Positions 44,851 through 64,000 of a stretch of DNA of 64,000 nt are shown here, one piece after another. How positions within the stretch are numbered: position 1 is the first letter of the stretch; every line of letters begins with the position of its first letter. The stretch comes from Bifidobacterium merycicum DSM 6492 (lineage in GTDB: Bacteria > Actinomycetota > Actinomycetes > Actinomycetales > Bifidobacteriaceae), in the NCBI RefSeq assembly GCF_900129045.1, contig NZ_FQTX01000002.1, positions 434,001-498,000 on the forward strand, in the 5' to 3' direction. A program made the position numbers and the translations under genes. The notes beneath the pieces are model-generated. The model did no database searches. It was not told where the DNA came from and worked only from the letters and a program-made list of their open reading frames with translations.

Positions 44851-44896
44851 TTCATATTACCCCGTCGCTGCGGTAGATTTGGACACATTCGGTCTG

Positions 44897-44902: not shown

Positions 44903-44940
44903 GTGAAGCGGAAATCAGGAGCTTGACGGAGGGGAAAAAG

Positions 44941-45288: not shown

Positions 45289-45343
45289 ATCGGTATCTTT
45301 AGGGATAATATTCTGAATTGTATACTTTGGTGATGGGGGCAAT

Positions 45344-46126
45344 ATGAAAACAGTAGTTAAGTCAGAAATAGCAGATGCTTTAAGGACCATTGGCCTTGAA
45401 AGAGGAGATTCTGTGATCGTACATACTTCTCTTGGAAAGATTGGGTATGTATGCGGCGGTGCACAAGTTGTCATAGAAGCTCTGATTGAGACCGTTGGAG
45501 AAGAAGGAACCATCATGATGCCAACGCAGTCATGGAAAAATCTTGACCCTGAAACTGGTGTTCATTGGGATGCTGATAAAACTGACTGGGATAGAATCAG
45601 AGAGAATTGGCCTGCTTATAATAAGGCGATTACTCCTACCAATACGATGGGGGCTGTTGCAGAAATGTTTCGCTCATGGCCCGGAGCGGTGAGGAGCGAT
45701 CATCCGTCCAGATCTTTTGCTGCGTGGGGGAGGAATGCTGAATATCTCACGAAAAATCATGATCTTTCTGATATTTTTGGGGACACATCTCCAATTGGAA
45801 AGCTTTATGATCTTGACGGAAAGATACTGTTGATTGGAGTGGACTATGACAAAAACACCTCTATTCATTTGGCAGATGTTCGTGCTGAGTATCGAGGAAA
45901 GCATACCTGTGTTGAACACAGTGCAGTCATGGAAAACGGGAAGCGAGTCTGGAAAGCATATGAAACGTTATTTGTAGATGGTGAAGATTTTAAGGATATA
46001 GGAATCGCTTTTGAAGCACTACATACTGTTAATACAGCAACACTTGGTGAAACAGAATTGAAAATTATGAGGCAGCGTGAGTTAGTGGACTTTGCTATTG
46101 AGTGGATTGAAAAGTACAGACAATAG
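45344..46126 (+). CDS. AAC(3)-family aminoglycoside N-acetyltransferase
   Basis: The 260-aa product has the Antibiotic_NAT pattern: DSVIVHTSLGKIGYVCGGAQVVIEAL, GTIMMPTQSW, ITPTNTMGAVAEMFRSWPGAVRSDHPSRSFAAWG, and the catalytic-region text TCVEHSAVM. These enzymes use acetyl-CoA to acetylate aminoglycosides at N3, but many homologues act on other substrates. It lies in AT-rich Firmicutes-like DNA, exactly where the upstream BREX genes and the first half of pglX are missing. Confidence 0.82.
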   Translation: MKTVVKSEIADALRTIGLERGDSVIVHTSLGKIGYVCGGAQVVIEALIETVGEEGTIMMPTQSWKNLDPETGVHWDADKTDWDRIRENWPAYNKAITPTNTMGAVAEMFRSWPGAVRSDHPSRSFAAWGRNAEYLTKNHDLSDIFGDTSPIGKLYDLDGKILLIGVDYDKNTSIHLADVRAEYRGKHTCVEHSAVMENGKRVWKAYETLFVDGEDFKDIGIAFEALHTVNTATLGETELKIMRQRELVDFAIEWIEKYRQ

Positions 46127-46170
46127 TATTCATAAAGGTAAATTCCTATTTGCTTGGAGATTTCCATACT

Positions 46171-48225: not shown

Positions 48226-48240
48226 AGGTAGGTGCCGATT

Positions 48241-50847
48241 ATGGATTCGGAAAAAATCATACAGGACTTGAATCGAAGATTCGCGGCACCGTTGCCAGAG
48301 TTCTATAAACGCCGGGTTGTTGTCTGGATAGACGAGGATGCGGAGTTTTTGGACAAGCTGGATGAAATCACGTTGAGCGGGGCCAAGATCATCGCGCTCA
48401 CTGGCTCCAACAACTTCTATGTGAAGAGGCTGCTGGCAGTGGACGATCCTACCAGCAATTATCTGGTGTATCGGCCTTTCGCCTATGAGTCCGACGAGGA
48501 TAACTGGCTGTTGGACGTGGAGCTGTACGGCGAGGAGTTCCGCGCCGATCTGGTTTCCATGTGGATGGACGAGATGGGCATCCCGCAGACGCCTGCGCTC
48601 CGTCGTGGCTTCAAGCAGTACCGGAAGTTCTTCAACGCGCAGGCTCGTCGAAGCAAGGTGTCCGCTCAGCCGGTCACTCCGGCCACGCCTGCTCAGCTGC
48701 AGATGGCCATCATGGCGGCGCTGGCAGGGTTGAAAGACGCCAAGCCGAACACGATCATCAAGGCGGTACTGAAAGCCGGTCTCTCAAAGGACAGCAATGC
48801 GGTATATCAGGAATTTGTAAGCTACGGTATCGACGAGGCTTTCTGGCGCATGGTGGCGCAGGGCACCGGATACCAGGACATGGATTCCGACCTTGCTCAA
48901 CTTGCCACGCACCTGCTGATGACGGCCTCCACTCGAACGATGCGTCAGGAGTTCCTTGCTGGACTCCAGATGTTCATCTCCTCCGCGCATCAGGCGTATT
49001 GCTATGACTTCGTGTCCGACTGGATGCACAGTGAGGACGCCGGTGATATCTGTGCCATCGCGGAGCATGTGGAGAACGAGCTGAAACTCCCGCAGCGGTT
49101 CATGAAACTGCAGGTGGCCGATCTCGTGGATACGGAGACCTTCCCGTGCGTCAATGAGGTCATCCTCGTGAAGCTGATGACTGAGATCAGCGATCATATT
49201 ATCGACGTGGACACGATCACCCAGACCGTGGAGAAGCGCCGGACCTGCGTCTGGTATGAAGACGTAAAGAACTACTATGAAGGCATCCTGCAGGTAGCGA
49301 AGATGCAGGCCTTCTTCAAAGAGCATTCTTCTGGGTTCCATACCGTGGAGCCTGTGAAGGTGTGGAAGGAATACACAACGGAATACTACATCATGGACAC
49401 CTACTACCGGGAGTTTCATAAGACCTATTCCGAGAGCCTGAAAAACTACCACGAGGAGCTGTCCGACCTCTTCACCCATGTGATGGAGAAGGTTGAAGGG
49501 CTCTATACCACGTGGTTCCTCGGTCAGCTGGGAACCAACTGGTCAGATGCCTGCGCGGACAATCTGCGCGAGTATGGCCGGGTTCTGGAAGTGCCGCAGC
49601 AGGCGGATTTCTATCGCCAGAAGGTGGCAGCTTCCGATAGCAAGGTGTATGTGATTGTTTCCGATGCCCTGCGCTATGAAGTGGCAGCCTCCCTTGCAGA
49701 GCAGCTGCAGCGGGAGACGCAGGCCAAGGTGGACCTGAAGTCCATGCAGGCAGTCTTCCCGACGATCACGAAGTTTGGCATGGCGGCGCTGCTTCCGCAC
49801 AAGCACATCCATACGGAGATCAAGGGCGCTGACAGCTCTGAGCGGCTGGTGGTGCTGGCAGACGGCCAGTCCACCGAAGCGAATAATCGGGACAAGCTCC
49901 TGAAGGCAGCAGACTCAGCCAGTGTTGCGCTTAAGTATAAAGACATCATCGGCATGAAGCGAGCTGACCGGCAGGCGCTCATAAAGGGCATGAACGTGGT
50001 CTACATCTACCACGACACCATTGATGAGGCCGGTCATCTGGAGAGCTCCATCTTTACCGCCTGCGACACGGCGATTGAGGAGATCAAGAACATGGTCCGT
50101 ATCATCGCCAATGAGTGGGGCGGCGCGAATATCATCATCACCTCCGATCACGGGTTCCTGTACACCTACAGCCCGCTGAAGGAGGATGACAAGGTAAACC
50201 TCGAATCGCAGGACGATCAGCGGATAGAGGTTGGCAGGCGTTATGCGATCATGCACAACAGCTATCACTCTAACTTCCTGCTCCCGGTGAAGTTCATTGC
50301 TGGAGACAATCCGCACTATGATGGGTGGGCTCCACGCGAGACGATCCGGATCAAGATGAAGGGCGGCGGCCTGAACTTCGTTCACGGTGGCATCAGCCTG
50401 CAGGAGATGGTTGTGCCGTTGATCGAGTACCACTTCCTGCGGAACCAGAGTAAAGAATACAAGAGGAACAGGAGCAAGTACGACACGAAGCCTGTGGAGA
50501 TCAGCCTGCTCTCTGCCAACCGGAAGATCAGCAATATGATCTTCTCCCTGAACTTCTATCAGAAGGAGCCTGTTGGTGGGAACCGAGAAGCGGCGACCTA
50601 CCAGCTGTACTTCACGGACAGCGCTGGAAAGGCGATCAGCGATGTCCAGAAGATCATCGCTGACAAGACCAGCGACAACGGGCAGGATCGTACCTTCCGC
50701 TGCAGCTTCAATCTGAAATCGCTGAAATACAGTAATACCGAGACCTACTATCTTGTCATCGCTGATGAGAACGGCCTGCAAGTGCAGCGCGAAGAATTCC
50801 AGATCGATATCGCATTTGCGGTGGATGAATTCGACTTCTTCGGTTAA
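48241..50847 (+). CDS. pglZ: BREX alkaline-phosphatase-superfamily protein PglZ (type A)
   Basis: The 868-aa product starts MDSEKIIQDLNRRFAAPLPEFYKRRVVVWIDED, has the long helical middle (FFKEHSSGFHTVEPVKVWKEY), then the phosphatase core: VYVIVSDALRYEVAASLAEQL with a metal-binding Asp, TKFGMAALLPH, YHDTIDEAGH, NIIITSDHGFLYTYSPL and the C-terminal HGGISLQEMVVPLIEY. That is the PglZ-A plan of type 1 BREX. The start codon could be the GTG at 48232. It lies between pglX remnant and brxL in canonical BREX order. Confidence 0.93.
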   Translation: MDSEKIIQDLNRRFAAPLPEFYKRRVVVWIDEDAEFLDKLDEITLSGAKIIALTGSNNFYVKRLLAVDDPTSNYLVYRPFAYESDEDNWLLDVELYGEEFRADLVSMWMDEMGIPQTPALRRGFKQYRKFFNAQARRSKVSAQPVTPATPAQLQMAIMAALAGLKDAKPNTIIKAVLKAGLSKDSNAVYQEFVSYGIDEAFWRMVAQGTGYQDMDSDLAQLATHLLMTASTRTMRQEFLAGLQMFISSAHQAYCYDFVSDWMHSEDAGDICAIAEHVENELKLPQRFMKLQVADLVDTETFPCVNEVILVKLMTEISDHIIDVDTITQTVEKRRTCVWYEDVKNYYEGILQVAKMQAFFKEHSSGFHTVEPVKVWKEYTTEYYIMDTYYREFHKTYSESLKNYHEELSDLFTHVMEKVEGLYTTWFLGQLGTNWSDACADNLREYGRVLEVPQQADFYRQKVAASDSKVYVIVSDALRYEVAASLAEQLQRETQAKVDLKSMQAVFPTITKFGMAALLPHKHIHTEIKGADSSERLVVLADGQSTEANNRDKLLKAADSASVALKYKDIIGMKRADRQALIKGMNVVYIYHDTIDEAGHLESSIFTACDTAIEEIKNMVRIIANEWGGANIIITSDHGFLYTYSPLKEDDKVNLESQDDQRIEVGRRYAIMHNSYHSNFLLPVKFIAGDNPHYDGWAPRETIRIKMKGGGLNFVHGGISLQEMVVPLIEYHFLRNQSKEYKRNRSKYDTKPVEISLLSANRKISNMIFSLNFYQKEPVGGNREAATYQLYFTDSAGKAISDVQKIIADKTSDNGQDRTFRCSFNLKSLKYSNTETYYLVIADENGLQVQREEFQIDIAFAVDEFDFFG

Positions 50848-50858
50848 GGAGGAACATC

Positions 50859-52925
50859 ATGGATCAGTTCATAGAGGGTACGATGGATACCCGTGAAATC
50901 ATCAAGGGCAAGCTCCGTCAGTGCTTCGACGGAAAGATTGTCCGGAAAGACCTCACAAAGAAGATCAAGGAAGGGGCCAATGTACCCGTCTATGTACTTG
51001 AGTTCCTACTGGGGCAGTATTGCAGCTCCGATGACGAAGAAGTCATCGAAAAAGGCGTCGAGAACGTCAAAAGGATTCTCGCCGATAATTTCGTCCGCCC
51101 GGATGAGGCCCAGAAGATCCTCTCCATGCTCCGCTCCCGTGGCAGCTATACCGTCATCGACAAGATCACGGTGAGCCTGAACATCAAGCGGGATGTGTAC
51201 GAGGCAGAGTTCTCCAACTTGGGTCTGAAGGCCGTTCCGATCTCCGACGAATATCCGGAGAAATTTGACCGGCTGCTCTGCGGCGGTATTTGGTGCATCG
51301 TTCAGCTGGATTACGAGTACATCGAAGAAGATAAGAAGAACGGGAATCCGATCCAAATCCGTAAACTCACGCCAATCCAGATGCCCCACGTAGATATCAA
51401 CGAACTGAAGGAAGGCCGGAAGTCATTCACCAAGGAAGAGTGGATGGATGTCCTGCTCCGCTCCATCGGCATGGAGCCAGACACCCTGACAGAGCGTGAA
51501 AAATGGCTGTTGCTTCTCCGTATGGTGCCGCTGGTAGAGAATAACTTCAATCTGTGTGAGCTTGGGCCGAGAAGCACCGGCAAAAGCCACCTGTTCAAAG
51601 AAATCTCTCCCAACAGCATCCTCGTTTCCGGTGGCCAGACGACTGTAGCGAATCTGTTCTACAACATGGCTCGGAAACAGGTCGGCCTCGTCGGCTTGTG
51701 GGACTGCGTCGCCTTCGACGAGGTGGCCGGGATCAATTTCAAAGACAAAGACGGCATCCAGATTATGAAGGACTACATGGCATCCGGTTCCTTTGCCCGT
51801 GGCAAGGAAGAAAAGGCCGCCAGCGCTTCGATGGTGTTTGTTGGCAACATCAATCAGAGCGTGGACGTTCTCCTGAAGACCAGCAGCCTCTTTGATCCGT
51901 TCCCTCCGGAGATGGGAACCGATACGGCGTTCCTCGACCGCATGCATTGCTATATCCCCGGCTGGGAGATTCCGAAGTTCCGTCCGGAGCATTTCACCGA
52001 TGACTACGGCTTCATCACAGACTACCTCGCCGAGTTTATCCGGGAGCTGCGGAAGGAGCAGTATGGCGATGCGCTGGACCACTTCTATCATCTTGGTAAG
52101 AACCTGAATCAGCGCGATACCATCGCTGTCAGGAAGATGGTTGGCGGCCTCATCAAACTGCTGTATCCGGACGGTGAGTACACCAAGGATCAGCTGGAAG
52201 AAATCCTGAAACTGGCACTGGAGATGCGCCGTCGTGTCAAAGAGCAGCTCAAGAAATTGGGCGGCATGGAATTCTACGACGTCAACTTCTCCTACATAGA
52301 TAACGAGAGCTTTGAGGAGCATTTTGTTTCCGTTCCCGAGCAAGGCGGTGGCAAGCTGATTCCGGAGGGGCTCTGCAATCCTGGTCAGGTATATACCATT
52401 GGCCACGGCAAATCCGGCATGATCGGTGTCTTCCGGCTGGAGAGCCAGATGCTGCCCGGTAACGGAAAATTAGAGCGGACCGGCATCGGGACGGACCGGG
52501 ATGCCCGTGAATCCTCCAATACCGCCTTTAACTTCCTTAAGGCCAACGGAAACCGGATCAGCGGGTCCATCAGCACGACCACGAAGGACTACATCATCAA
52601 CTATCAGGACTTGCAGGGCATCGGGATGACCGGAAAACTGGCGCTTCCAACACTGATTGCACTGTGCTCTATCGCTCTGAACAAGCCAACACTGAGCAGC
52701 CTCGCCGTGCTGGGTGAAATCAGCATAAGCGGCACGATGATCAAGGTCGAGGAGCTGGCCAATGCGCTGCAGGTGTGCTTGGACAGCGGAGCCAAGAAGG
52801 TACTCCTGCCGATCACGTCGGCGGCAGACCTCGGCACAGTACCTGCAGAGCTAATCGGCTGCTTCAACCTCATCTTCTACAACAGCGCGGAAGATGCAGT
52901 ATTTAAAGCGCTGGGAGTCGAGTAA
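50859..52925 (+). CDS. brxL: BREX Lon-like protein BrxL
   Basis: AAGGAGG lies upstream of the ATG. The 688-aa product has an AAA+ core with Walker A GPRSTGKSHL (from 236) and Walker B VAFDEVAG (Asp287, Glu288), then a C-terminal Lon-protease-like domain (about 530-688, GEISISGTMIKVEELANALQ and SGAKKVLLPITSAADLG). BrxL is a DNA-interacting AAA+ hexamer of type 1 BREX. Since brxA, brxB and brxC are not present and pglX is truncated, pglZ and brxL are probably left over or serve a reduced system. Confidence 0.93.
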   Translation: MDQFIEGTMDTREIIKGKLRQCFDGKIVRKDLTKKIKEGANVPVYVLEFLLGQYCSSDDEEVIEKGVENVKRILADNFVRPDEAQKILSMLRSRGSYTVIDKITVSLNIKRDVYEAEFSNLGLKAVPISDEYPEKFDRLLCGGIWCIVQLDYEYIEEDKKNGNPIQIRKLTPIQMPHVDINELKEGRKSFTKEEWMDVLLRSIGMEPDTLTEREKWLLLLRMVPLVENNFNLCELGPRSTGKSHLFKEISPNSILVSGGQTTVANLFYNMARKQVGLVGLWDCVAFDEVAGINFKDKDGIQIMKDYMASGSFARGKEEKAASASMVFVGNINQSVDVLLKTSSLFDPFPPEMGTDTAFLDRMHCYIPGWEIPKFRPEHFTDDYGFITDYLAEFIRELRKEQYGDALDHFYHLGKNLNQRDTIAVRKMVGGLIKLLYPDGEYTKDQLEEILKLALEMRRRVKEQLKKLGGMEFYDVNFSYIDNESFEEHFVSVPEQGGGKLIPEGLCNPGQVYTIGHGKSGMIGVFRLESQMLPGNGKLERTGIGTDRDARESSNTAFNFLKANGNRISGSISTTTKDYIINYQDLQGIGMTGKLALPTLIALCSIALNKPTLSSLAVLGEISISGTMIKVEELANALQVCLDSGAKKVLLPITSAADLGTVPAELIGCFNLIFYNSAEDAVFKALGVE

Positions 52926-52940
52926 AGGGGGACAGCAGGC

Positions 52941-54740
52941 ATGGCGCAGTTTGATGTAAACAGCACATCCGTTGAGAATATTATCAGCTCCATAAAGGCT
53001 GGCGAGATAGCCATCCCGGAGATTCAGAGGCCTTTCGTATGGGACGGATCGAAGGTCCGTGACCTGATGGACTCCCTCTACAAGGGATTCCCGGTCGGAT
53101 ACATCATTGTCTGGAAGAATCCGGACGTCCGACTGAAGGACGGGAAGATTTCATCTGGCAAGAAGATTCTGATTGATGGTCAGCAGCGCATTACAGCGAT
53201 TCAGGCTGCGGTCGTTGGCCAGCAGGTGGTGGATTCAACTTATAAAAAGAAGCGGATCACCATAGCCTTCAATCCCATCGATGAGGTCTTTGAGGTCTGC
53301 AATCCGGCCATTGAGAAGGACGTGAAGTGGATTCCGGATATTGCGCAGGTCTTTGACGTCAGCTTTAATGCGTGGGAGTTCGTGAACAACTACTGCCAGA
53401 TCAACGGTCTTGACGGGCAACAGCCTGAGATCAACAAGACGCTTATGAAGCTGATGTCCATCAAAGGCATCAACCTCGGCGTAACTGAGCTGTCGCAGGC
53501 ACTGACCATTGATGAGGTTACGGATATTTTCATCCGCATCAACTCTCAGGGCGTTGTGCTGTCACAGGCGGATTTCGCCATGTCCAAAATCTCCTCCGAC
53601 GATAAATACGGTGGCAACGAGATCCGAAAGATGATCGACTACTTCTGCCACTTCATGCAGAGGCCTTCAGACTACGAGCAGATTATCAGCAATGACGCTG
53701 ACTTTGCCAAGTCAGATGCCCTGAATAAGATCAAATGGATCGTGCAGGAGCAGGAAGACATCTACGTTCCAAACTATGCCGACGTGCTCCGCGTTTCCTT
53801 CACCCATAAATTCAAGAGAGGCAAGATTGCCGATCTGGTCAGCCTGCTCTCCGGACGTAATTTTGAAACCAGAGAGAATCTGGAAAGCATCGCGCAGGAC
53901 TCCTTCCAACAGCTGCGGGAGGGCGTTGAGGCCTTTGTCAGCGAGACCAACTTCAAACGGTATCTGATGATCGTCCGCTCGACCGGCATCATCGATTCTT
54001 CATTGGTGCGCTCCCAGAACGTGCTGAACTTCGGCTACATTCTGTATCTGTCACTGAAGGACATGAAGGTTGAATCCGCTGTGATTGAAACACTGGTCCG
54101 GAAATGGATCGTGCTTTCCATCCTGACGGGCCGCTATTCCGGTTCCGCAGAATCCGCCATCGACTATGATATCAAGCGTTTCACGGAACAAAACCCTGTG
54201 CAGTTCCTGAAGAATACTGAAGCCGGTGAGCTGTCAGATGCCTTCTGGGATACCGTTCTGGTACAGCGGCTTGATACCTCTGTCTCCAGCAGCCCGTACT
54301 TCCTGACCTTCCTCATGGCTCAGGTCAAGAGAGGTGCACGCGGGTTCCTGTCCAGTCAGATTGACGTTCAGTCCCTGATTGAACAGCGTGGAGATATCCA
54401 TCACATCTTTCCGAAGAAGTACCTGCAGAAGAACGGCGTCAACAACCGGAAGGATTACAACCAGATCGCGAACTATGTGTACACGCAGTCCGAGATCAAC
54501 ATCAAGATCAAGGACGATGCTCCCTGCGAGTATATGGCGAACATGAGAAAGCAGGTCGCCGGAGAGGGCAACTTCTATGGCAGCATCACCACGATGGAAG
54601 ACCTCGAAGCGAATCTGGCCGAGAACTGCATTCCGGTGGAGTTCATGGAGATGGATATCTTCGACTACGCGCTGTTCTTGGATACTCGCCGGACGATGAT
54701 GGCACAGTACATCAGGGATTACTACAGGAGCTTGGATTAG
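52941..54740 (+). CDS. DUF262/GmrSD-like nuclease (type IV restriction-like)
   Basis: The 599-aa product has an N-terminal DUF262 (ParB/Srx-like) domain with IPEIQRPFVWDGSKVRDLMDSLYKGFPVGYI and DGQQR at 79-83, and a C-terminal HNH-like DUF1524-type region with DIHHIFPKKYL (His487, His488) and an Asn-rich NYVYTQSEINIKI. This is the fusion architecture of GmrSD and BrxU, which cut modified phage DNA. It follows brxL by 15 bases, in the usual place for BREX accessory nucleases. Confidence 0.88.
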   Translation: MAQFDVNSTSVENIISSIKAGEIAIPEIQRPFVWDGSKVRDLMDSLYKGFPVGYIIVWKNPDVRLKDGKISSGKKILIDGQQRITAIQAAVVGQQVVDSTYKKKRITIAFNPIDEVFEVCNPAIEKDVKWIPDIAQVFDVSFNAWEFVNNYCQINGLDGQQPEINKTLMKLMSIKGINLGVTELSQALTIDEVTDIFIRINSQGVVLSQADFAMSKISSDDKYGGNEIRKMIDYFCHFMQRPSDYEQIISNDADFAKSDALNKIKWIVQEQEDIYVPNYADVLRVSFTHKFKRGKIADLVSLLSGRNFETRENLESIAQDSFQQLREGVEAFVSETNFKRYLMIVRSTGIIDSSLVRSQNVLNFGYILYLSLKDMKVESAVIETLVRKWIVLSILTGRYSGSAESAIDYDIKRFTEQNPVQFLKNTEAGELSDAFWDTVLVQRLDTSVSSSPYFLTFLMAQVKRGARGFLSSQIDVQSLIEQRGDIHHIFPKKYLQKNGVNNRKDYNQIANYVYTQSEINIKIKDDAPCEYMANMRKQVAGEGNFYGSITTMEDLEANLAENCIPVEFMEMDIFDYALFLDTRRTMMAQYIRDYYRSLD

Positions 54741-54775
54741 GTCTTGATCGAGAGATTAACTTATGGAGGCAGGCA

Positions 54776-55429
54776 ATGACATATAAAGAATTTGTAGAAG
54801 CGACAATCTGCAATTTGAGCCAACCAGTATATGAAGAACTCAAACAGTTGTTGCTCGGAGTATACATATCTTTCTCCATCATAAACCATGAGGATGTCAC
54901 TATAGATATTCTCGCCGAGAAGGTTTGTGATTACTTTGGCACGCTTGAAATCAAAACAGGTAAGACGTTCGATAAGCATATCGAAACCTACATGAATGAT
55001 ATTGATTCCATTGTGGGGCCACGCATTGCCAAAACTCCACAGGCAAAGAAGGGCGATACGACACCGATCGTTGTTCCTCGGTCAAGGAAGTATTACGAAA
55101 AGGCTATTGCTACCAAAGGATTAAAAAAGCCTTCTATGACCCAGCTGGTTGATTATTCTCGGATCATGATGTGCCTTTACACTGCGGCGAATAACAGCGA
55201 AGGAAAACCAATTACAAATTTTGACTACGCTGCAGATTGCCTTATTCCAGCAAGTATCATTGATGCCATGAAAAGAGAGGAAGTCTCGGTCGTGTTTCCT
55301 CCTTCAAAAAAGAAACGGTTTGACACGAAGGAGCTATACAGCGGTGACGTGTGCACATTGATATTATCTATTCTGATCCTCTGCTCGATCATCAACGGAA
55401 AAGTAGAAGGAGAAACTGATCATGAGTAA
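54776..55429 (+). CDS. uncharacterised protein opening the AAA+ operon
   Basis: 217 aa starting MTYKEFVEATICNLSQPVYEELKQLL; GGAGGCAGGC lies upstream. It is mixed helix, with a basic stretch (VVPRSRKYYEKAIATKGLKK) and a hydrophobic segment near the C-terminus (VCTLILSILILCSIINGKV) that could be membrane- or partner-facing. I recognise no family. The stop overlaps the next start by 8 bases. Its partners, a coiled-coil protein and a CbxX-type ATPase, suggest a three-component complex. Confidence 0.65.
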   Translation: MTYKEFVEATICNLSQPVYEELKQLLLGVYISFSIINHEDVTIDILAEKVCDYFGTLEIKTGKTFDKHIETYMNDIDSIVGPRIAKTPQAKKGDTTPIVVPRSRKYYEKAIATKGLKKPSMTQLVDYSRIMMCLYTAANNSEGKPITNFDYAADCLIPASIIDAMKREEVSVVFPPSKKKRFDTKELYSGDVCTLILSILILCSIINGKVEGETDHE

Positions 55430-56456
55430 TACGGTAGTTATTGAGACTTTGGAGCAACTGAAAGCATTTCTGAATGAAAAAGGCGTTATGGAAATTGCGG
55501 TCAGGAATCAGAACAAGCGGTTCAAAGCCTTTCAGAAGGTCATGATCAACAATCTTCCGGAAACGCAGGAAAAAGAGCTTGCTCAAAAAGTTATTCATGC
55601 ACTCAATAAAAATACGCTGCTGAACGAACGAAATCTGAATCTTCTGGGAAACGTGGCGAAGTTGCAGCAGATTGGCATACTTTTAAATGGCCTGAATCTG
55701 TGTGCTACCTGCGCTGGTTTTGCGATTATGTACGCGAAACTGGATGCGATGAGTTCAGAAATCAATCAGCAGCTCTACCAGCTTCAGAAGACAATAAAGC
55801 AGACTCAAGACATACAGAATGATTATGAGTTCAATAAGGTCCTTGCAGAGCATACGGATATGCTGGACAGCCAGCGTAAACAGCAGCCTTATTCCGAAGG
55901 GAAAATGCGTGAACTTGTTGATCGCGAGTACAATGTCCTGATGCTTCTGATCAGTTCTTTTCAAAAGGATATCTCAGGGGACCGTAGTGCATTGATCTTT
56001 TCGATCTTCTCTATGCTTGCTATGTTTACTGTATCCCTGCGTAGTTTTGACGAGCTGTATTACTTCAACAATCGTCAGGCACTGGGCGAAAAAGACGCAT
56101 GGCATCTGGCCCATGATAAATGGATGAGTGTATACGACACTTTATCATCCGAGTGGTTTATTGAAAAGCTGCAGGATTATGGGACGTTCGAAACAAAGCT
56201 ATCAACACTGGGTGTCGATATCTACTACATCAGTTTACTGGATCAGGTGGCTGAGCTGAGAGGCGAAATAGAAGATAATCAGGCCTTGATTATTGCTATA
56301 GGAGACATTGAGCTTTTCAGGCAGTTTAAAGAAATGAGTGCACAGGAAGTGGCTGATTCCATTGAATCAGCATTCAGAGAAGCTGGTGGCGATTTGGATG
56401 ATGAAACCATCAGGGCAGCTTATCAGAATGCAATGCAACAGGCAGCTATGGCATGA
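55422..56456 (+). CDS. uncharacterised helical coiled-coil protein
   Basis: 344 aa starting at the ATG overlapping the upstream stop. It is helical throughout, with coiled-coil text (SEINQQLYQLQKTIKQTQDIQND), two moderately hydrophobic stretches (IGILLNGLNLCATCAGFAIMYA near 85-106 and ALIFSIFSMLAMFTVSL near 189-205) and an acidic C-terminus. No family is recognised. The hydrophobic segments hint at a membrane-acting effector, but this is only inference. It is coupled with the ATPase gene 11 bases downstream. Confidence 0.65.
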   Translation: MSNTVVIETLEQLKAFLNEKGVMEIAVRNQNKRFKAFQKVMINNLPETQEKELAQKVIHALNKNTLLNERNLNLLGNVAKLQQIGILLNGLNLCATCAGFAIMYAKLDAMSSEINQQLYQLQKTIKQTQDIQNDYEFNKVLAEHTDMLDSQRKQQPYSEGKMRELVDREYNVLMLLISSFQKDISGDRSALIFSIFSMLAMFTVSLRSFDELYYFNNRQALGEKDAWHLAHDKWMSVYDTLSSEWFIEKLQDYGTFETKLSTLGVDIYYISLLDQVAELRGEIEDNQALIIAIGDIELFRQFKEMSAQEVADSIESAFREAGGDLDDETIRAAYQNAMQQAAMA

Positions 56457-56467
56457 GGTGAACGGTT

Positions 56468-57880
56468 ATGGATGTTTCCGTCAAGAATGCTTTTGAGAAG
56501 CTCACAAAAGCGTGCGAGCGAGTAGATTCTCTCCGGCAAAAACAGAAGAATGGATTATCCCTGAAAAGACTTCTTGCGGAGGATATCTATGCCTTTATAT
56601 GCCTGATCTCAAAATCTGGAACAGAAGAAAGATATAGCTATTTCAACGAGGTGTACCAGGGTGGAGCCTTCCCCTCATCTGAATTGAATTGCATCAAGGA
56701 AGGCGGCTTGCCCAGAGCATTTATTGCGTTAAATGAGTTTGATCGCTCTGTTCGAAATACGAATACTGTGCAAACAGCCGGTCTGTTTGTGTCCTTCATT
56801 TCTGAACTGGGCAAGTCCTATCTGCTCAGCAGATTTGACAAAAAAGAAGTTGATTCCAAGAAATATATAGACTATATCCGGTCATTACAAGATGCTCTTC
56901 CTTGCCAAGATGAGGACCGGTCCAACGATAGAGCCAAGGCTTCAGCTGGTGTGGCATCACAGAACAAGCCCTCCCAAGGGATGGAGCTGGAGGAAGGCAA
57001 GAAAAGTGAAGAGCCAGCGGAATCCGTACAGGAAGATGTACCGGAAGAAACTTTAGAGGAACTGTTGGAAAAGCTGAATGCCCTGATCGGACTTGCAGGA
57101 GTAAAGCAGGAAGTCACGACCCTTATCAACATGATAAAGATAAAGAAGATTCGTGACTCTCGTGGATTGGAAACAGCCAGCATTTCAAAGCATCTGGTTT
57201 TTCTGGGAAATCCCGGAACAGGAAAAACTACGGTTGCAAGGCTGCTCTCTAAGATTTATAAACAGCTCGGTGTTCTCGAAAAAGGACAGCTGGTGGAGGT
57301 TGACCGGGCAGGCCTGGTAGCCGGATACGTGGGTCAAACAGCACTTAAAACAAAAGAAAAAATCGATGAGGCGATGGGCGGCATCTTGTTTATTGATGAA
57401 GCCTACACTTTGGCAAAAGGCGGATCGGACTTTGGACAAGAAGCTATCGATACCATACTGAAAGCAATGGAGGATAATAGGGAGAACTTTGTTGTCATCG
57501 TGGCCGGATACCCGGAACCGATGGAGCAGTTTTTGGGATCAAATCCAGGCCTCAAATCCCGTTTCAATAAGAACATTATGTTTGAGGACTATTCGGAAGA
57601 AGAACTGTTGTGTATCTTTAATGCCTTCTGTAAGCCCTTCAATATGAAACTCAGCATTGAAGCAGAGTATTGTGTCAAGGAGTACTTGCACTGGCTCGTC
57701 CAACATAAATCAGAGAACTTTGCAAATGGACGTGAAATGAGAAATCTATTTGAATTGGCACTTTCAAATCAGGCGAATAGACTGGCTGAAAAAGTAGACA
57801 TCACAGACGACGAGTTAAACGAGATCGCCAAGGATGATCTTCCTGTATGGGTAATCCATCCGCAGAATAGCGAGGAGTGA
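56468..57880 (+). CDS. CbxX/CfxQ/SpoVK-type AAA+ ATPase with unknown N-terminal domain
   Basis: The 470-aa product has an N-terminal helical domain of unknown type (1-190), an acidic linker ([20 protein letters not shown]) and an AAA+ module with [11 protein letters not shown], Walker [15 protein letters not shown] (247-254), Walker [17 protein letters not shown] (Asp310, Glu311), [20 protein letters not shown] with the arginine finger, and [13 protein letters not shown]. CbxX ATPases remodel partner proteins. It is the third gene of the compact operon and could load, disassemble or restrain the preceding coiled-coil protein. The following gene overlaps or lies 2 bases away. Confidence 0.88.
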
Positions 57881-57882
57881 TT

Positions 57883-58200
57883 ATGGTCGGCAAGTATAAG
57901 GTCATTACACTTTGTGGCAGTACCCGGTTCAAGGACGCATTCATGGAGGAACAGAAACGACTGACGCTGGAGGGCAACATCGTGATCAGCGTGGGACTCT
58001 TCGGCCACTCTGGCGATGATGAGGTCTGGACCGAGGGCACCAAGGAAATGCTGGATGACATGCACAAACGGAAAATTGATATGGCGGATGAGATTTTCGT
58101 GATCAACGTTGGTGGCTATATCGGGTCCAGCACCCGGTCCGAGATCGAGTATGCGACCGCAACTGGGAAGACTGTGAACTATTTGGAGCCTATGTCATGA
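57883..58200 (+). CDS. nucleoside 2-deoxyribosyltransferase-like protein
   Basis: 105 aa, ATG at 57883 two bases after the ATPase stop. ITLCGSTRFKDAFMEEQKRLTLEGNIVISVG, then KIDMADEIFVINVGGYIGSSTRSEIEYATATGK, is the pattern of the DUF4406/nucleoside 2-deoxyribosyltransferase-like Rossmann family. Relatives hydrolyse or exchange nucleoside bonds or, in some defence systems, process nucleotides. Length is short but domain-complete. It overlaps the next gene by four bases. Confidence 0.78.
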   Translation: MVGKYKVITLCGSTRFKDAFMEEQKRLTLEGNIVISVGLFGHSGDDEVWTEGTKEMLDDMHKRKIDMADEIFVINVGGYIGSSTRSEIEYATATGKTVNYLEPMS

Positions 58201-58382
58201 AACAGAACAATACGGAGAACACCGAATGGTCCTTCCTAAGCTACGAGGAGAAGAACCGACAACTTTTCCTCCGGCAGAAGAAAACGCTCGATATGTTTTT
58301 GGAACGCGGTGCCATATCGCAGGCCCAGCACGATAAAAGTCTCCATGACCTGATCGAAAAGATGGGAATAAAGGATAGCTGA
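58197..58382 (+). CDS. small SHOCT-like protein
   Basis: 61 aa overlapping the preceding stop (ATGA). Its C-terminal half, DMFLERGAISQAQHDKSLHDLIEKMG, resembles the short C-terminal oligomerisation (SHOCT) motif. Likely a small partner of the operon proteins. Confidence 0.6.
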   Translation: MKQNNTENTEWSFLSYEEKNRQLFLRQKKTLDMFLERGAISQAQHDKSLHDLIEKMGIKDS

Positions 58383-58385
58383 GGC

Positions 58386-59129
58386 ATGAAAAATCAATAC
58401 TTTGGGGATGTTGGCGATTATGGAAAATACGGACTACTGCGCTTTATTGCAAAGCGTGGTGTGACAATTGCGGTCAATTGGTATCTGACGCCTGACGATC
58501 AATCGAATGATGGGCACATACGAGGCTATCTTACTAATGACAGGGATCGTAAATATGATCCGGAACTGTTTGATGTACTTCGGGAAATGAGTATTCATAA
58601 AGAGAAAAATGTCGGTCGCTTTGCAGAGCGAGAAATGATCCCCGGCACGATTTACTTTGATAGTATCGTTCAGCCACAGCTTTCTGACTCGACATTGTCG
58701 GTGACTGACAAGCGACTGGCACGGGAACGATGGCATCAGCAGGCACTTGCGGGATGCTACGGACCAGAACTCGTATTCATGGACCCGGACAATGGATTGA
58801 GAGAAGGCAGTCCCACGGCACGGAAAGATGCGCAGAAGTTCGTCTATGCATCGGAGGTATATAGCTACTATAACCGGGGACAGGACGTATTTTACTATTG
58901 CCACAAGGGACGACGGACAGAGACCCAGTGGGAAAAGGCAAAGCGCATTATGCAGGAGTCTTGTCCTGATGCGGTAATGCTGGGTATCACATATCATCGT
59001 GGAACGCAGCGAAGCTACATTTTTGTGTTGCATCCAGAGAAGGAAAAGTTATATCGCGTCCTACTGAAGGATTTTCTGGAAACTGCATGGAAAGACTGCT
59101 TTACATCAGAGCCCATCTCACAGGCATAA
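58386..59129 (+). CDS. uncharacterised protein of the GDYGKYGLLR type
   Basis: 247 aa with MKNQYFGDVGDYGKYGLLRFI at the start, LVFMDPDNGLREGSP, and VFYYCHKGRRTETQWEKAKRIMQ near the C-terminus. The order, an Asp-Pro-Asp-Asn motif after a Rossmann-like strand, recalls methyltransferase-like or three-Cys-motif-partner proteins but the function is not known to me. It starts 3 bases after the small SHOCT-like gene and belongs to the same operon. Confidence 0.65.
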   Translation: MKNQYFGDVGDYGKYGLLRFIAKRGVTIAVNWYLTPDDQSNDGHIRGYLTNDRDRKYDPELFDVLREMSIHKEKNVGRFAEREMIPGTIYFDSIVQPQLSDSTLSVTDKRLARERWHQQALAGCYGPELVFMDPDNGLREGSPTARKDAQKFVYASEVYSYYNRGQDVFYYCHKGRRTETQWEKAKRIMQESCPDAVMLGITYHRGTQRSYIFVLHPEKEKLYRVLLKDFLETAWKDCFTSEPISQA

Positions 59130-59191
59130 CACGATAAATACTATTATGTTTTATTCGAGAAAATGGGCGTACAGAAGAATTGAGGTGCAGC

Positions 59192-59623
59192 ATGGCAGAC
59201 ATTTTCAGGATCGTGATTAAAGGCGGTTCCGGGTACGGTCCGGTGGACGAGGCCTTTAGCGACAAAGTGACTATCGACTGTGATTCCATCAGATATGAAT
59301 ATACGCCAGTGGTGGAAAGTGAAATCAATATGCCGAGGAAATGGACATATAAAACCTCCAGCCCGATCTTTCAAAAGCTGTTTAGAGAGGCGGCGGCTGC
59401 GGTTGAGGTTATCCTTAACTGGGAAGAGGAACCGTTTGTAACAGATCTCGGTGTTACCTCATTCACAGTCACATACGCGGATAAAACCAAGGCCACAAGG
59501 GATTTCATCCTTCCGGGAGATGATTTCAAAGAGTGCTTTGCCATTATCAAACAGATGGTGCCGGGATGTGAATACACTCCAGCGGTACTTCTTACATCGG
59601 ACGACTACGATGAAGAGGGGTGA
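59192..59623 (+). CDS. uncharacterised small beta-rich protein at the island's right end
   Basis: An ATG at 59192 with GAGGTG upstream gives 143 aa (MADIFRIVIKGGSGYGPVDEAF, EYTPVVESEINMPRKWTYKT, TVTYADKTKATRDFILPG). It is beta-rich with an acidic end. I recognise no family. It is the last cargo gene before the right repeat array, 60 bases after the previous stop. Confidence 0.6.
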   Translation: MADIFRIVIKGGSGYGPVDEAFSDKVTIDCDSIRYEYTPVVESEINMPRKWTYKTSSPIFQKLFREAAAAVEVILNWEEEPFVTDLGVTSFTVTYADKTKATRDFILPGDDFKECFAIIKQMVPGCEYTPAVLLTSDDYDEEG

Positions 59624-59646
59624 GAAGCAGGCTCCACATGACACCT

Positions 59647-59745
59647 TTTAACGATTCCCCGCACAGTTTAATTATTCCAGCACCTTTTAATTATTCGACC
59701 ACATTTTAATTATTTGCCGGTCGGCGGTGTGCAGGAGGGTAAGTT
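59647..59745 (+). repeat. right subterminal repeat array of the island
   Basis: Four TTTAATTATTC-type units at 59647 (degenerate), 59667, 59686 and 59705, with 19-20-bp spacing, then one GGGTAAGTT at 59737. Read inward from the right end this mirrors the left array. Confidence 0.75.
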
Positions 59746-59777
59746 TCTCCGGTACCGCACATGCACAATGACAATTG

Positions 59778-59850
59778 CATAAAGCATCAAGGGCCTTCAC
59801 AGCTCTGCCGGAATGACCGGTGGGACCGCGAAAGCCCTTGATTTCTTTAT
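59778..59850 (+). terminator. hairpin near the right island end
   Basis: ATCAAGGGC and its complement (plus an outer CATAAAG pair) around a long loop, followed by TTCTTTATG. It may insulate hsdM from island transcription. Confidence 0.55.
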
Positions 59851-59888
59851 GTTTTGGGCACGTATGTGCCGGATGCTGACTTTATCAT

Positions 59889-59913
59889 TTGTATCAAAGA
59901 CAGCGTCTTTATA
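59889..59913 (-). repeat. right terminal inverted repeat of the island
   Basis: Reads inward as TATAAAGACGCTG then TTTGATACAA; pairs with 44723-44747 at 19 of 25 positions. Confidence 0.75.
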
Positions 59914-60834
59914 GATCCGGCCTGTGGAACTGCCGGCTTTCTTATTTCCGCAGCGGAGTCCATTCGCGCGAACTATGAGAAGAAGATGACCGAGGACGAA
60001 TGGAGCATGTTCTCCGGCGAACAGTTCACCGGCTTTGATACGGATCAGACCATGGTTCGCATTTCGGCCATGAATCTGTTGCTGCATGCCATTGACCACC
60101 CTGACATTCGTAATCAGGATAGCCTTTCCCGCTTGAACACCATCAGAGACAAGTTTGATTTGATTCTTGCCAATCCGCCGTTTACCGGCAGCGTGGATGT
60201 TGAGGACATCGATGATTCGCTGAAGGCGGTTGTGGAAACTAAGCAGACGGAGCTGTTGTTCGTCGCATTGTTCCTGCGCATGCTCAAGCTTGGTGGCCGT
60301 TGCGTGTGCATCGTGCCGAACGGCGTGCTGTTTCACTCCAACTCGAAGGCCTACCGGCAGTTGCGCGCCGAACTGGTGGACAACCAGAGGCTCGAAGCGA
60401 TTATCTACATGCCGTCAGGAGTGTTCAAGCCGTATTCAGGCGTAAGCACCGCTATTCTCGTGTTCACGAAGACGGACGCAGGCGGCACGGACAAGGTTTG
60501 GCTCTACAACATGGAGGGCGACGGATACACGCTCGACGACAAGCGCGATTCGGACGAGAAGCACAACGACATTCCCGACATTCTCGAGCGATGGGGAAAC
60601 CTCGACACGGAAGAACAGCGCGCCCGTACTGATAAGAGCTTTCTGGTGCCGAAGAGCGAAATTGTGGAAAACGATTACGATTTCAGCTTCAACAAGTACG
60701 CGGAAACAAAGTACGAACGTATTGAATATCCACCGACTGAGGAAATCCTCGCCGATCTTGATGATTTGAACAGGAAGATGACGGAAAGCCTCGCGGAACT
60801 GCACAAAATGCTCGGAGGTGCCCAGAATGACTGA
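59914..60834 (+). pseudogene. hsdM: second hsdM, 3' part
   Basis: Resumes exactly at DPACGTAGFLISAAESI (AdoMet motif I) and has motif IV ILANPPFTGSVDVED, MLKLGGRCVCIVPNGVLF and a C-terminal helical end. The frame is open upstream to 59854 into the element, which supplies no good start, so it is not likely made as a functional enzyme unless the island excises. The stop overlaps hsdS by 8 bases. Confidence 0.92.
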
Positions 60835-62026
60835 CAAACCCCAATTTGTCGGAAAGAAAGTGAAGCTCGGAGAGCTGTGCGAGATATGCTCCGGTGGAAC
60901 TCCCAAACGTTCCGTTGCTGAATACTGGAAAGATGGAACCATACCTTGGGTGAAGATTGGAGACATGTCCGAAAAGTATGTTTCATCAACTGAAGAGCGC
61001 ATAACAGACGCTGGATTTAACAACTCTTCTGTGAAAATGCTTGAGCCTGGAACCCTGCTATATTCAATATTCGCTTCGATTGGTGCTGTGAGCATCTTGA
61101 AGATTCCTGCGACAACGAATCAAGCAATTGCTGGTCTCAAAATTAAAGATGATTCACTTGATCGCGATTTTTTATACCATTATTTAAAATCCCGAGAATC
61201 GATATCGAAATCATCGGGCAGGGGCGCTGCACAGAACAACATCAATCTGACCATTTTGCGTAATATGCAGGTCACGTTACCCTCGATAGAAATTCAAAGG
61301 AGTATTGTTCGGAACCTCGAAATGATTTCGAATCAAGTGACGATAGCAGAATCGCATCTTATGGACCTTGATGCTCTCGTCAAATCCCGGTTTGTCGAAA
61401 TGTTCGGAGATCCAATACGCAACCCATTAAGAATGTCTGTTTCTTCGGTAGAAGAACTTGCCGCGCCAATTAAAAACTCAATGAAAGCAGGCCCATTTGG
61501 TTCGGCTTTGAAAAAAGAAGTCTATGCTGAATCTGGGTATAAGGTCTATGGACAAGAGCAAGTCATCTCTGGCGATCAATTTTTGGGGAACTATTACATT
61601 GATAAGGCGAAATATGAGCAGCTTAATAGTTGTAAAGTAATGCCGGGCGATGTCTTAATTAGCCTAGTGGGCACGGTGGGAAAAGTTCTGATTCTTTCAG
61701 AGGACTGTCAGCCTGGAATCATCAATCCGCGACTTGTCAAAATTATTTTTGATAAAAGAAAGATTTTTCCAGAGTATTTCGCTATTGCGTTTTCTCTGGA
61801 GTCCGTTCGCAGTTCGCTGCTTGGCAGAGCACATGGACAAACAATGAATGTTCTAAACCTTGGAATGATTAAGAAATTGAAATTGCCCGTACCGCCTATC
61901 TCGCGGCAAAAGGAGTATTTGAATTTCGTTGCGCAGGTCGATAAATCGCGATTTGTCGCCCAGCAACAGATCGAAAAACTGCAAATGCTTTACGATAGCC
62001 TCGCTCAGGAGTATTTCGGAGATTAG
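60827..62026 (+). CDS. hsdS: type I specificity subunit HsdS (second locus)
   Basis: The ATG at 60827 overlaps the hsdM stop. The 399-aa product has two recognition domains: one from KVKLGELCEICSGGTPKRS to LPSIEIQRSIVRNL, and a second from SVSSVEELAAPIKNSMKAG to LPVPPISRQKEYL, each followed by a conserved coiled-coil helix (DLDALVKSRFVEMFGD; QIEKLQMLYDSLAQEYFGD). It is full length. With hsdM interrupted it may be idle, or the MTase could come from another locus. Its central helix shares a 31-bp direct repeat with the downstream hsdS. Confidence 0.93.
   Translation: MTDKPQFVGKKVKLGELCEICSGGTPKRSVAEYWKDGTIPWVKIGDMSEKYVSSTEERITDAGFNNSSVKMLEPGTLLYSIFASIGAVSILKIPATTNQAIAGLKIKDDSLDRDFLYHYLKSRESISKSSGRGAAQNNINLTILRNMQVTLPSIEIQRSIVRNLEMISNQVTIAESHLMDLDALVKSRFVEMFGDPIRNPLRMSVSSVEELAAPIKNSMKAGPFGSALKKEVYAESGYKVYGQEQVISGDQFLGNYYIDKAKYEQLNSCKVMPGDVLISLVGTVGKVLILSEDCQPGIINPRLVKIIFDKRKIFPEYFAIAFSLESVRSSLLGRAHGQTMNVLNLGMIKKLKLPVPPISRQKEYLNFVAQVDKSRFVAQQQIEKLQMLYDSLAQEYFGD
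61374..61404 (+). repeat. hsdS direct repeat, copy 1
   Basis: 31 bp (contains CGTCAAATCCCGGTTTGTCG), identical to 63637-63667 and in the same orientation, in the central conserved helix. Confidence 0.9.
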
Positions 62027-62068
62027 AGTTCGTTAAACCCTGATATTGCAAGGTTCTCGATGGCTTAC

Positions 62069-62109
62069 GGCACCTTTTTTGTAGGGAAACCAACAAGGAG
62101 GTGCCTTTT
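62069..62109 (+). terminator. terminator-like hairpin containing the recombinase ribosome site
   Basis: GGCACCT and AGGTGCC pair across 24 bases and are followed by TTTTC. The 3' part contains AAGGAGG, the ribosome site of the recombinase, so the hairpin may both end hsdS transcripts and limit recombinase translation. Confidence 0.55.
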
Positions 62110-62112
62110 CTC

Positions 62113-63084
62113 ATGCAACAGACAATCGAACGAATTGACCGTCTTATGGCCCCTATGCTGAATGATGAGCAGGCTTCGGAACTTCATACGGTGCTTGTGG
62201 CCTGTCTAACTGAGAAAGGTGGGAATCCACGCGGTCCCGAAACAATGACCGAATGCATAGACTTGTTTCTTGCCGCGAAGAAGCTCGAAGGTTGTTCAGA
62301 ACGGTCGTTGCGTTACTATGCGACCACATTGTCCCGTTTTGCTACGGAAATCTCCAAGCCGGCTCACGACATCACCACCGACGATATTCGCGACTATCTC
62401 ACACGATATTCGCGTGATGGCCGCGTAGGCAAGACAACAATCGACAACATCCGCCGCGTCATCTCCAGTTGCTTCTCCTGGCTTGAAGAGGAAGACTACA
62501 TTTACAAAAGCCCTGTACGTAGAATCAAGAAAATCAGGACTTCGAGAACGTTGAAACCCGTGTATTCGGACGAATCGCTTGAACAACTCCGTGACTCCTG
62601 CAAGGAGACGCGTGACCTTGCAATGATTGATTTATTGACATCTACGGGCATCAGGGTAGGCGAGCTGGTGCAGCTGAATCGTCGTGATATCGACTTCGAT
62701 GCACGCGAATGTGTGGTCCACGGCAAAGGGGACAAGGAACGACGAGTCTACTTCGATGCCCGTGCGAAAACTCATCTGCTCGTATACCTTGAACAGCGAA
62801 TGGATGACGAGCCCGCCTTGTTCGTTTCCCTGCAACGTCCATTTAATCGATTGGAGATCAGCGGTGTGGAGGCTAGGCTTCGCAAGCTTGGCAAGGTCTC
62901 AGGCGTCAAGCATGTGCATCCGCATAAATTCAGGCGAACGCTTGCGACGAAGGCTATTGATAAAGGAATGCCAATTGAACAGGTGCAGGTGCTGCTCGGA
63001 CACAGTAAAATCGACACGACTCTTTGCTATGCGCAGGTGGATCAAAGCAACGTCAAGCGTTCCCATCGCAAATTCATATCATGA
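62113..63084 (+). CDS. tyrosine recombinase (XerC/D-like) between two hsdS genes
   Basis: The ATG at 62113 follows AAGGAGG. The 323-aa product has a SAM-like N-terminal domain (LFLAAKKLEGCSERSLRYYATTLSRF) and catalytic residues: Arg in TGIRVGELVQL, Lys region GKGDKERRV, HKFRRTLATKAI and LGHSKIDTTLCYAQV with Tyr. Position between hsdS genes is typical of recombinases that reshuffle recognition domains. Its stop overlaps the next hsdS start (ATGA). Confidence 0.93.
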   Translation: MQQTIERIDRLMAPMLNDEQASELHTVLVACLTEKGGNPRGPETMTECIDLFLAAKKLEGCSERSLRYYATTLSRFATEISKPAHDITTDDIRDYLTRYSRDGRVGKTTIDNIRRVISSCFSWLEEEDYIYKSPVRRIKKIRTSRTLKPVYSDESLEQLRDSCKETRDLAMIDLLTSTGIRVGELVQLNRRDIDFDARECVVHGKGDKERRVYFDARAKTHLLVYLEQRMDDEPALFVSLQRPFNRLEISGVEARLRKLGKVSGVKHVHPHKFRRTLATKAIDKGMPIEQVQVLLGHSKIDTTLCYAQVDQSNVKRSHRKFIS

Positions 63085-64000
63085 CACCCAGCAAACACCA
63101 ATTTGACGGACATAGAGTACGTATTCCCGATGTATTTGATTTGCAGATGGGAAAGACTCCGTCGCGGAAGAATCCCTTGTACTGGCGCGATGGCAATCAT
63201 GACTGGGTCTCTATAGCAGATTTGGGTTCCTTCGGTAAGTATGTTGGCAAGACGAAAGAACGGATTAATGATTTTGCAGTAAAAGAATCTGGCATTAAAC
63301 TGACTCCGGCGAATACGGTGTTGATGAGCTTTAAATTATCCCTTGGCAAGACATCGATAACGACAGAGCCTGTGTACACAAACGAAGCCATTATGGCTTT
63401 TATCAATAAAGGCTTGTATCCGGTTGACACCAGTTTTATGTACCATCAATGCCGCTCAAAAGATTGGGCTGCGGGGACGAATGCTGCTGTTATGGGGAAG
63501 ACACTGAACAAAAGGACACTTGGACGGTCCGTTATCTTTTTGCCCTCACTTGAGGAACAGGAAGATATAGCAGCAAAACTTGATTTCATCGATGAACAGC
63601 TTCAAAAAGCGAAGGATGTTCTTCATGAGCTTGATTCTCTCGTCAAATCCCGGTTTGTCGAAATGTTTGGGAATGACAAACTATTTCAAGCTCGTCAAAT
63701 GGGGCAGTTGTTTTCAGGAATAGTGTCAGGCACTAATGTAAGTGGCAAGCAGAGGTCAATATTGCCGGGTGAGTTTGCAGTACTAAAGATCAGTGCTGTT
63801 ACGAAAGGGTTCTTTAAGCCAAATGAATATAAAGTGGTTGATGATGTCTCGAATATAAAAATGATTCACCCGCGAAAAGGAGATTTACTTTTTAGTCGAG
63901 CAAATACGAGTGAGATGGTTGGAGCTACTGCAATTGTTGATGATGACTATGAACAATTATTCCTCCCTGATAAGCTGTGGCGTCTTGATCCTGCTGAGGG
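63081..64000 (+). CDS. hsdS: second HsdS of the same locus (3' truncated by the window)
   Basis: The ATG overlaps the recombinase stop; the frame is open to the window end (about 306 residues). Recognition domain one runs from FDLQMGKTPSRKNPLYWRD to LPSLEEQEDIAAKL; the central helix ELDSLVKSRFVEMFGN repeats that of the preceding HsdS; domain two starts ARQMGQLFSGIVSGTNVSG and is incomplete. It has its own start, so both hsdS genes could be translated, unlike the silent cassettes of the first locus. Confidence 0.9.
   Translation, partial: MTPSKHQFDGHRVRIPDVFDLQMGKTPSRKNPLYWRDGNHDWVSIADLGSFGKYVGKTKERINDFAVKESGIKLTPANTVLMSFKLSLGKTSITTEPVYTNEAIMAFINKGLYPVDTSFMYHQCRSKDWAAGTNAAVMGKTLNKRTLGRSVIFLPSLEEQEDIAAKLDFIDEQLQKAKDVLHELDSLVKSRFVEMFGNDKLFQARQMGQLFSGIVSGTNVSGKQRSILPGEFAVLKISAVTKGFFKPNEYKVVDDVSNIKMIHPRKGDLLFSRANTSEMVGATAIVDDDYEQLFLPDKLWRLDPAE
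63637..63667 (+). repeat. hsdS direct repeat, copy 2
   Basis: 31 bp identical to 61374-61404; recombination between them would delete the recombinase gene and swap the second recognition domain. Confidence 0.9.

Follow-up and report, generated by a model that had tools for sequence, protein, structure and literature searches.

A type I restriction-modification (RM) locus of Bifidobacterium merycicum DSM 6492, in which a tyrosine recombinase stands between two directly oriented hsdS genes, is quite likely, judging from a comparative analysis of its recombination sites, a system shuffling HsdS recognition domains by excision and reintegration, of the kind represented by the tvr locus of Streptococcus pneumoniae and with an added site at the start of each hsdS. 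The locus extends over the end of the analyzed stretch of DNA (hereafter the window; 64,000 nucleotides, positions 434001-498000 of contig NZ_FQTX01000002.1 in a genome of 2.27 Mb and 15 contigs), and it was followed past the window end up to contig position 507000 (17 kb, 490001-507000, labelled L006). Across the window and this extension, open reading frames (ORFs) on one strand are arranged in the order hsdM piece, hsdS1, recombinase, hsdS2, hsdR.

A preliminary description of this DNA had proposed two hsdS genes, each with its own start codon, around an Xer-like recombinase, and both the ORFs and the family assignments bear this out. The genes hsdS1 (60827..62026, plus strand; ATG at 60827, stop ending at 62026) and hsdS2 (63081..64000 and on to window-equivalent position 64379, plus strand; ATG at 63081; L006:7081-8376) each show two stretches of Pfam Methylase_S, and their products are 31% identical. 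The recombinase (62113..63084, plus strand; ATG at 62113) is assigned by Phage_integrase and SAM-like domains (Pfam), by its place in the recombinase tree and by the NCBIfam model NF040815 (XerA/integron integrase; 246.8 bits, cut-off 220); its motifs TGIRVGE, HKFR, LLGHS and LCYAQ contain what we take to be the tyrosine-recombinase active-site residues. Of the spacing originally given (overlaps of 4 bases or close packing), the 4-nt overlap applies to recombinase and hsdS2 and not to hsdS1 and recombinase, which are separated by an 86-nt gap; no gene is present between the recombinase and either flanking hsdS. The last 8 nt of the hsdM frame are shared with the start of hsdS1. Extension past position 64,000, the check proposed at that stage, shows hsdS2 completed at 64379 and followed by a full-length hsdR (window-equivalent 64399-67806, plus strand; 1135 aa; ResIII, HSDR_N and EcoEI_R_C in Pfam), with no inverted or additional hsdS in these 17 kb and none of the inverted repeat copies that had been considered there. 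The frames of hsdS1, recombinase, hsdS2 and hsdR are all open.

The identical 31-bp block reported in both hsdS genes is indeed exact and in the same orientation (61374..61404 in hsdS1 and 63637..63667 in hsdS2, plus strand), and it is embedded in a 51-nt direct repeat (88% identity, spacing 2263). Both copies are translated in the same frame to LVKSRFVEMF, so that crossover products would stay open. Each block contains a recombinase-type central site, TCGTCAAA-TCCCGG-TTTGTCGA (61377-61398 and 63640-63661), of which the exact 22-nt sequence has two copies in the genome, both in this locus; a copy with three mismatches is located on another contig, outside any hsdS (G000:C11:37498-37519). The start and end sites of both hsdS genes, as well as the split hsdM and the downstream hsdR, are additions to the preliminary description. 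In hsdS1 these are a start site (60831..60852, plus strand; CTGACAAA-CCCCAA-TTTGTCGG, score 13 of 16) and a distal site (61938..61959, plus strand; TCGATAAA-TCGCGA-TTTGTCGC, score 14 of 16). Over 73 kb of contig, the top four scores belong to the hsdS1 centre and hsdS2 centre (15 each), the hsdS1 end (14) and the hsdS1 start (13), with 0.1 matches expected at a score of 13 or above. The hsdS2 end site (score 12; 9 matches seen vs. 3.3 expected at 12 or above) and the hsdS2 start site (63088..63109, plus strand; CCAGCAAA-CACCAA-TTTGACGG, score 11 of 16; 23 matches expected at that level) are not significant alone. All sites of the locus point in the same direction; the central spacer TCCCGG is non-palindromic and the distal spacer TCGCGA palindromic. 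The 3' ends of the two genes share two weaker direct repeats (33 nt, 88%; 40 nt, 78%), and the sole inverted match between the genes (22 nt, 86%) derives from the near-palindromic end site. Compared with hsdS1, hsdS2 has ~40 extra residues between the distal site and the common last helix (window-equivalent 64205-64379).

Relatives were drawn from a genus sample of 112 genomes (own included, every one with some recombinase match), from named genomes and from viral contigs (53 matches). For 124 loci (L006 and L037-L159), layout was classified from matches of hidden Markov models, built for this analysis to mark hsdM, hsdS, hsdR and recombinase, to ORFs within 5 kb, not all of them inspected by eye. 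The recombinase adjoins hsdS in 120/124 of these loci. The best 80 of at least 571 named-genome relatives comprise 35 loci with direct hsdS on both sides, 9 with same-strand hsdS on one side only, 34 inverted and 2 without hsdS; the corresponding viral loci (L133-L159, n = 27) are 9 direct, 6 one-sided, 10 inverted, 1 with opposite-strand hsdS only and 1 without hsdS. The 35 direct loci are assigned to Bacillota (26), Actinomycetota (3), Spirochaetota (2) and Synergistota, Deferribacterota, Bacteroidota and Pseudomonadota (1 each), by record labels that may be wrong, several of the records being metagenome bins. Outside the classified set, L160-L177 have a recombinase match and, except for L161, no hsdS match; L178-L185 have no match.

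DNA sites fitting TCGACAAA-N6-TTTGTCGA occur at both the centre and the end of hsdS in same-strand loci. Across 58 such loci (L134 and L154 were excluded here, as well as from the spacer, codon, start-site and passenger analyses), we counted 125 sites of score 12 or above in hsdS (123.5 kb), vs. 4 in hsdM (93.5 kb), 8 in hsdR (137.9 kb), 4 in the recombinase genes (59.1 kb) and 28 in other DNA (367.5 kb), or 0.04-0.08 per kb outside hsdS. This enrichment at centre and end is partly circular, as the consensus was built from the same loci; the circularity affects the spacer test and the codon control less. In the latter, with each locus' own codon usage as reference, Asp-Lys-Phe at the distal site is encoded as GAC-AAA-TTT in 27/30 cases vs. 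3.0 expected, and TTT-ATC-GAG-x-TTT is found at the central site in 19/22 vs. 0.77 expected; thus, the motif is conserved as DNA in a way that codon usage does not explain. Start sites (score 9 or above) are present at 32/62 hsdS starts, compared with 109/1004 background stretches, some of the 32 being central-type sites right behind the recombinase, which resembles the tvr arrangement. In L071, L072, L128 and L146 a central site comes within ~20-30 bp after a distal site, which looks like a head-to-tail array of second-domain modules.

The 6-nt spacers of these sites are matched within loci. A central site was obtained in 47/58 loci and a distal site in 47/58, the latter by a search pattern that allows certain spacer forms only. 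Central spacers agree within a locus in 42/44 pairs (permuted mean 4.5, maximum 13 in 5000; both disagreeing pairs trace to one L067 match outside its hsdS), distal spacers in 42/42 (permuted mean 15.1, maximum 26) and start-site spacers in 8/9 (permuted mean 0.2, maximum 2), an agreement that past exchange or duplication would also produce. Central and distal spacers agree in 0/146 pairs.

These observations suggest a mechanism in which the recombinase would join two sites of like kind, that is, with an identical 6-nt spacer. Recombination between the two central sites would release a circle of 2263 bp, containing the recombinase together with a complete hybrid hsdS, and leave the second hybrid hsdS behind hsdM. 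Reintegration of the circle at the central site would restore the starting arrangement, and reintegration at the distal sites would swap the second domains between the genes with nothing lost, while the differing central (TCCCGG) and distal (TCGCGA) spacers should preserve the order of the two domains. As the start-site spacers differ by one base, first domains are probably exchanged only weakly here. We infer from the comparative evidence that the recombinase acts on these sites, that the circle forms and that it reintegrates. The preliminary description had anticipated the exchange of second domains and the removal of the recombinase, unlike the outcome of inversion, and to this extent it stands; it is incomplete in that, by analogy with tvr (PMC6265443), the deletion would be an intermediate and the outcome shuffling rather than only loss.

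The available parts of the tvr/SpnIV report (Kwun et al. 2018, PMC6265443) describe direct repeats at the midpoint (~18 bp) and tail (~70 bp) of hsdS with a common ~11-bp core, circles found experimentally, an excised piece that is a circular intermediate and reintegrates, and a rearrangement strongly dependent on TvrR with some TvrR-independent excision. The B. merycicum locus has the same order and common orientation (hsdM - hsdS - tyrosine recombinase - hsdS - hsdR), midpoint and tail direct repeats sharing a core and, among the tvr forms distinguished there ('2+1', '3+1' and '2+2'), the '2+2' layout with a complete hsdS on either side. It differs in repeat length (midpoint 31 bp vs. ~18 bp; an imperfect tail repeat of 33 nt, 88%, vs. 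~70 bp), in a third kind of site, placed at the start of each hsdS, in its split hsdM and actinobacterial-type recombinase, and in having no toxin-antitoxin pair beside the recombinase, where tvr has tvrAT. The inverting loci SpnIII/ivr/cod with PsrA, as far as the accessible text of PMC4948785, PMC7096588 and PMC7394358 goes, likewise have a tyrosine recombinase between hsdS copies and exchange domains, but their hsdS are inverted, whereas those of the window are direct, each with its own start codon; neither inverted hsdS nor inverted repeats of the SpnIII kind are present in this locus across the 17 kb of L006. Excision at direct repeats is also reported, in part of that literature (PMC4948785), for inverting type I loci.

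Footprints of rearrangement are visible in relatives. L054 and L055 (records of two genera) share a first-domain module of 517 bp at 99.2% identity, against 72-91% in their other matching stretches; the module occupies the hsdS beside the recombinase in one locus and the hsdS behind hsdM in the other, and its ends coincide with the start and central sites, a move that is also explicable by transfer and general recombination. In L072, recombinase and half-hsdS are duplicated in tandem (1673 bp, 99.7%) with junctions at TCTCAATTTAT, which is the central spacer with its right arm, and L066 and L118, of the inverted class, contain 3.6- and 2.5-kb duplications with overlaps of 14 and 16 bp; all three duplications could be assembly artefacts. 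Two records under different names that are 99.8-100% alike in the locus (L102 and L106) differ by inversion of a 675-bp recognition-domain segment (99.85%) bounded by AAATGATAATTTA repeats, which shows that switching does take place among inverted members of the wider family.

The hsdM gene of the locus is in two pieces. Its N-terminal piece (44160..44786, plus strand; a 208-aa ORF with PF12161 HsdM_N) matches residues 3-206 of the L053 HsdM at 60%, and its C-terminal piece (59905..60834, plus strand; N6_Mtase PF02384 from profile position 47, motif DPACGTAGF) matches the HsdM of L053 and L056 at 69-73% (tblastn), covering in L053 residues ~199-512 (69%) after a divergent start. Elsewhere in the genome the L053 HsdM finds two relatives at 27-28% only, and no second copy of the split hsdM family. 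Between the pieces lies an insert of ~15.2 kb (44724..59904; PADLOC, Pfam), whose ends align as imperfect inverted repeats of ~30 nt, with GA or GAT at both junctions. It contains a partial BREX system (PADLOC: the C-terminal part of PglX, profile 469-1170 of 1174, with PglZ and BrxL), a GmrSD_N protein, an Antibiotic_NAT protein, an AAA protein and more genes with no family match; none of the insert ORFs searched (Pfam, NCBIfam and PADLOC, with Pfam covering part of the ORFs) matched a transposase family. The acetyltransferase (aminoglycoside 3-N-acetyltransferase family, PF02522, E 1.4e-83) is encoded at 45344-46126, just inside the insert and before the partial PglX. With hsdM in two pieces and hsdS and hsdR open, the locus does not constitute an intact type I RM set; methylation by it is probably off in the present strain, and shuffling probably no longer alters methylation here, given the split of hsdM.

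This raises the alternative of a static hsdS pair in a dead remnant, in which the block is nothing but the conserved central helix of HsdS and the recombinase a bystander. The hsdM pieces 15 kb apart would fit, as would the conservation of the block-encoded motif in HsdS of relatives. Nevertheless, we consider it unlikely: identity and conservation at the DNA level exceed protein constraint (independent codon choices over the ten LVKSRFVEMF residues would agree by chance at ~1.6e-4, from codon usage in eight window genes), spacers are matched within loci, the recombinase accompanies hsdS almost throughout the classified loci, and four frames of the locus are open. A locus could also be dead at present and have been mobile earlier.

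A second alternative takes inversion as the way the locus works, with the direct layout as just one of its states. The recombinase tree (119 rows; L134, L135, L154, L126 and L046 left out) bears on it. Layout is clustered on this tree, with 12 changes vs. a shuffled mean of 38.3 and 0/500 shuffles as low, near-copies contributing. The recombinase of the window groups with those of Eggerthellaceae and Coriobacteriaceae, in a clade (bootstrap 100, SH-aLRT 98) of 57 rows, of which 51 are same-strand, 4 inverted (L053, L111, L113, L114) and 2 without hsdS. Fifteen genomes of the genus besides its own have a recombinase relative (51-58% identical, E < 1e-100); of 16 genus loci fetched, 15 are inverted and one, with a more distant recombinase (L052), is without hsdS. 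Fourteen genus recombinases form a separate clade (99/99), all inverted, and, because it sits in the other clade, the recombinase of the window was probably acquired from outside the genus. Bifidobacterium longum loci known from the accessible part of PMC4618763 likewise show hsdS - recombinase - hsdS with hsdM and hsdR; the 15 genus relatives differ from the window in both orientation and recombinase clade. Among plasmid relatives (7 of the 13 closest places fetched, outside the layout counts), three lactococcal loci and two of the three from Ligilactobacillus carry an hsdS on the opposite strand, the third Ligilactobacillus locus is entirely same-strand, and a Fusobacterium locus has a single hsdS and lacks sites scoring 12 or above (site scan of L186 and L189-L192). 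The inverted hsdS of all 15 genus relatives, the occurrence in L053 of all three kinds of sites in both hsdS, with matching spacers, around an inverted second hsdS, and the palindromic distal spacer, which could pair either way, would favor inversion. We regard it as very improbable for the window, where all sites point one way around a non-palindromic central spacer, no inverted partner exists within the 17 kb, and the genus relatives belong to another clade.

Just as improbable is domain exchange at the repeats by general homologous recombination rather than by the recombinase, as a 31-bp identity is short for that process. Pneumococcal loci do keep some rearrangement without the local recombinase (parts of PMC6265443 and PMC4948785), but in the former report a recA mutant still produced tvr circles, and TvrR was needed for excision at the shorter repeats.

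Exchange with the first RM locus of the window was considered and is not supported, its HsdS having no central motif and its HsdM being only 25% identical to the HsdM of L053 and L056. That locus (21316-23502) has hsdS and a tyrosine recombinase in one 728-aa frame, a candidate fusion; shared recombinase/hsdS frames, also candidate fusions, are found in L041, L044 and L050.

Several points weigh against excision and reintegration as the preferred explanation. The nearest tree row, L053 (100/97), has an inverted second hsdS; the start pair of the window (CCCCAA vs. CACCAA, one base apart) is the sole mismatch among start-site pairs; and encoded residues account for part of the difference between central and distal spacers, although in three loci (those of the window, L057 and L062) the spacers differ even with Ser-Arg encoded at both sites. 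Because hsdM is split and the genome offers no second copy of its family, the system may no longer be under selection. Our analysis is of assembled sequence only, and it revealed no rearranged form of the locus. Finally, some excision at long repeats proceeds without TvrR in pneumococcus, at least in the available account (PMC6265443), so agents other than the recombinase may contribute.

More than 250 bp separate recombinase and hsdS in 16/58 same-strand loci, and of 15 passenger ORFs searched from 12 loci, 12 have Pfam matches: nucleotidyltransferase with a partner (L090, L132), DUF3791/DUF3990 (L099), RelA_SpoT (L079), AAA_21 with DUF4435 (L070), KAP NTPase (L076), YhcG nuclease (L115), AAA (L131) and Trypsin_2 (L159), with none for the ORFs of L067, L075 and L077. 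Several of these families are, by name, presumably toxin-antitoxin or defence genes. The passengers sit within the piece that excision would remove.

Overall, the locus may exemplify a position code, a proposal that we consider about evenly balanced: a widespread recombinase family would use two to three sites per gene (start, centre, end) with common arms and different 6-nt spacers, of which only like spacers recombine. The same code would work with a direct second hsdS (excision and reintegration) or an inverted one (inversion), so that layout and outcome could change without change of enzyme or sites, some direct loci carrying toxin-antitoxin-like or defence-like genes in the excisable piece. 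Searches of an open-licence literature library showed no description of a direct-layout, recombinase-linked hsdS locus outside pneumococcus; since the survey of PMC7394358, according to its accessible text, searched for inverted repeats, direct-layout loci would be undercounted in it. Yet among the best 80 of at least 571 named-genome relatives, a sample and not a census, direct loci are about as common as inverted ones (35 vs. 34). Should the spacer rule prove correct, the sites that recombine and the hsdS forms available to a strain could be predicted from sequence alone.

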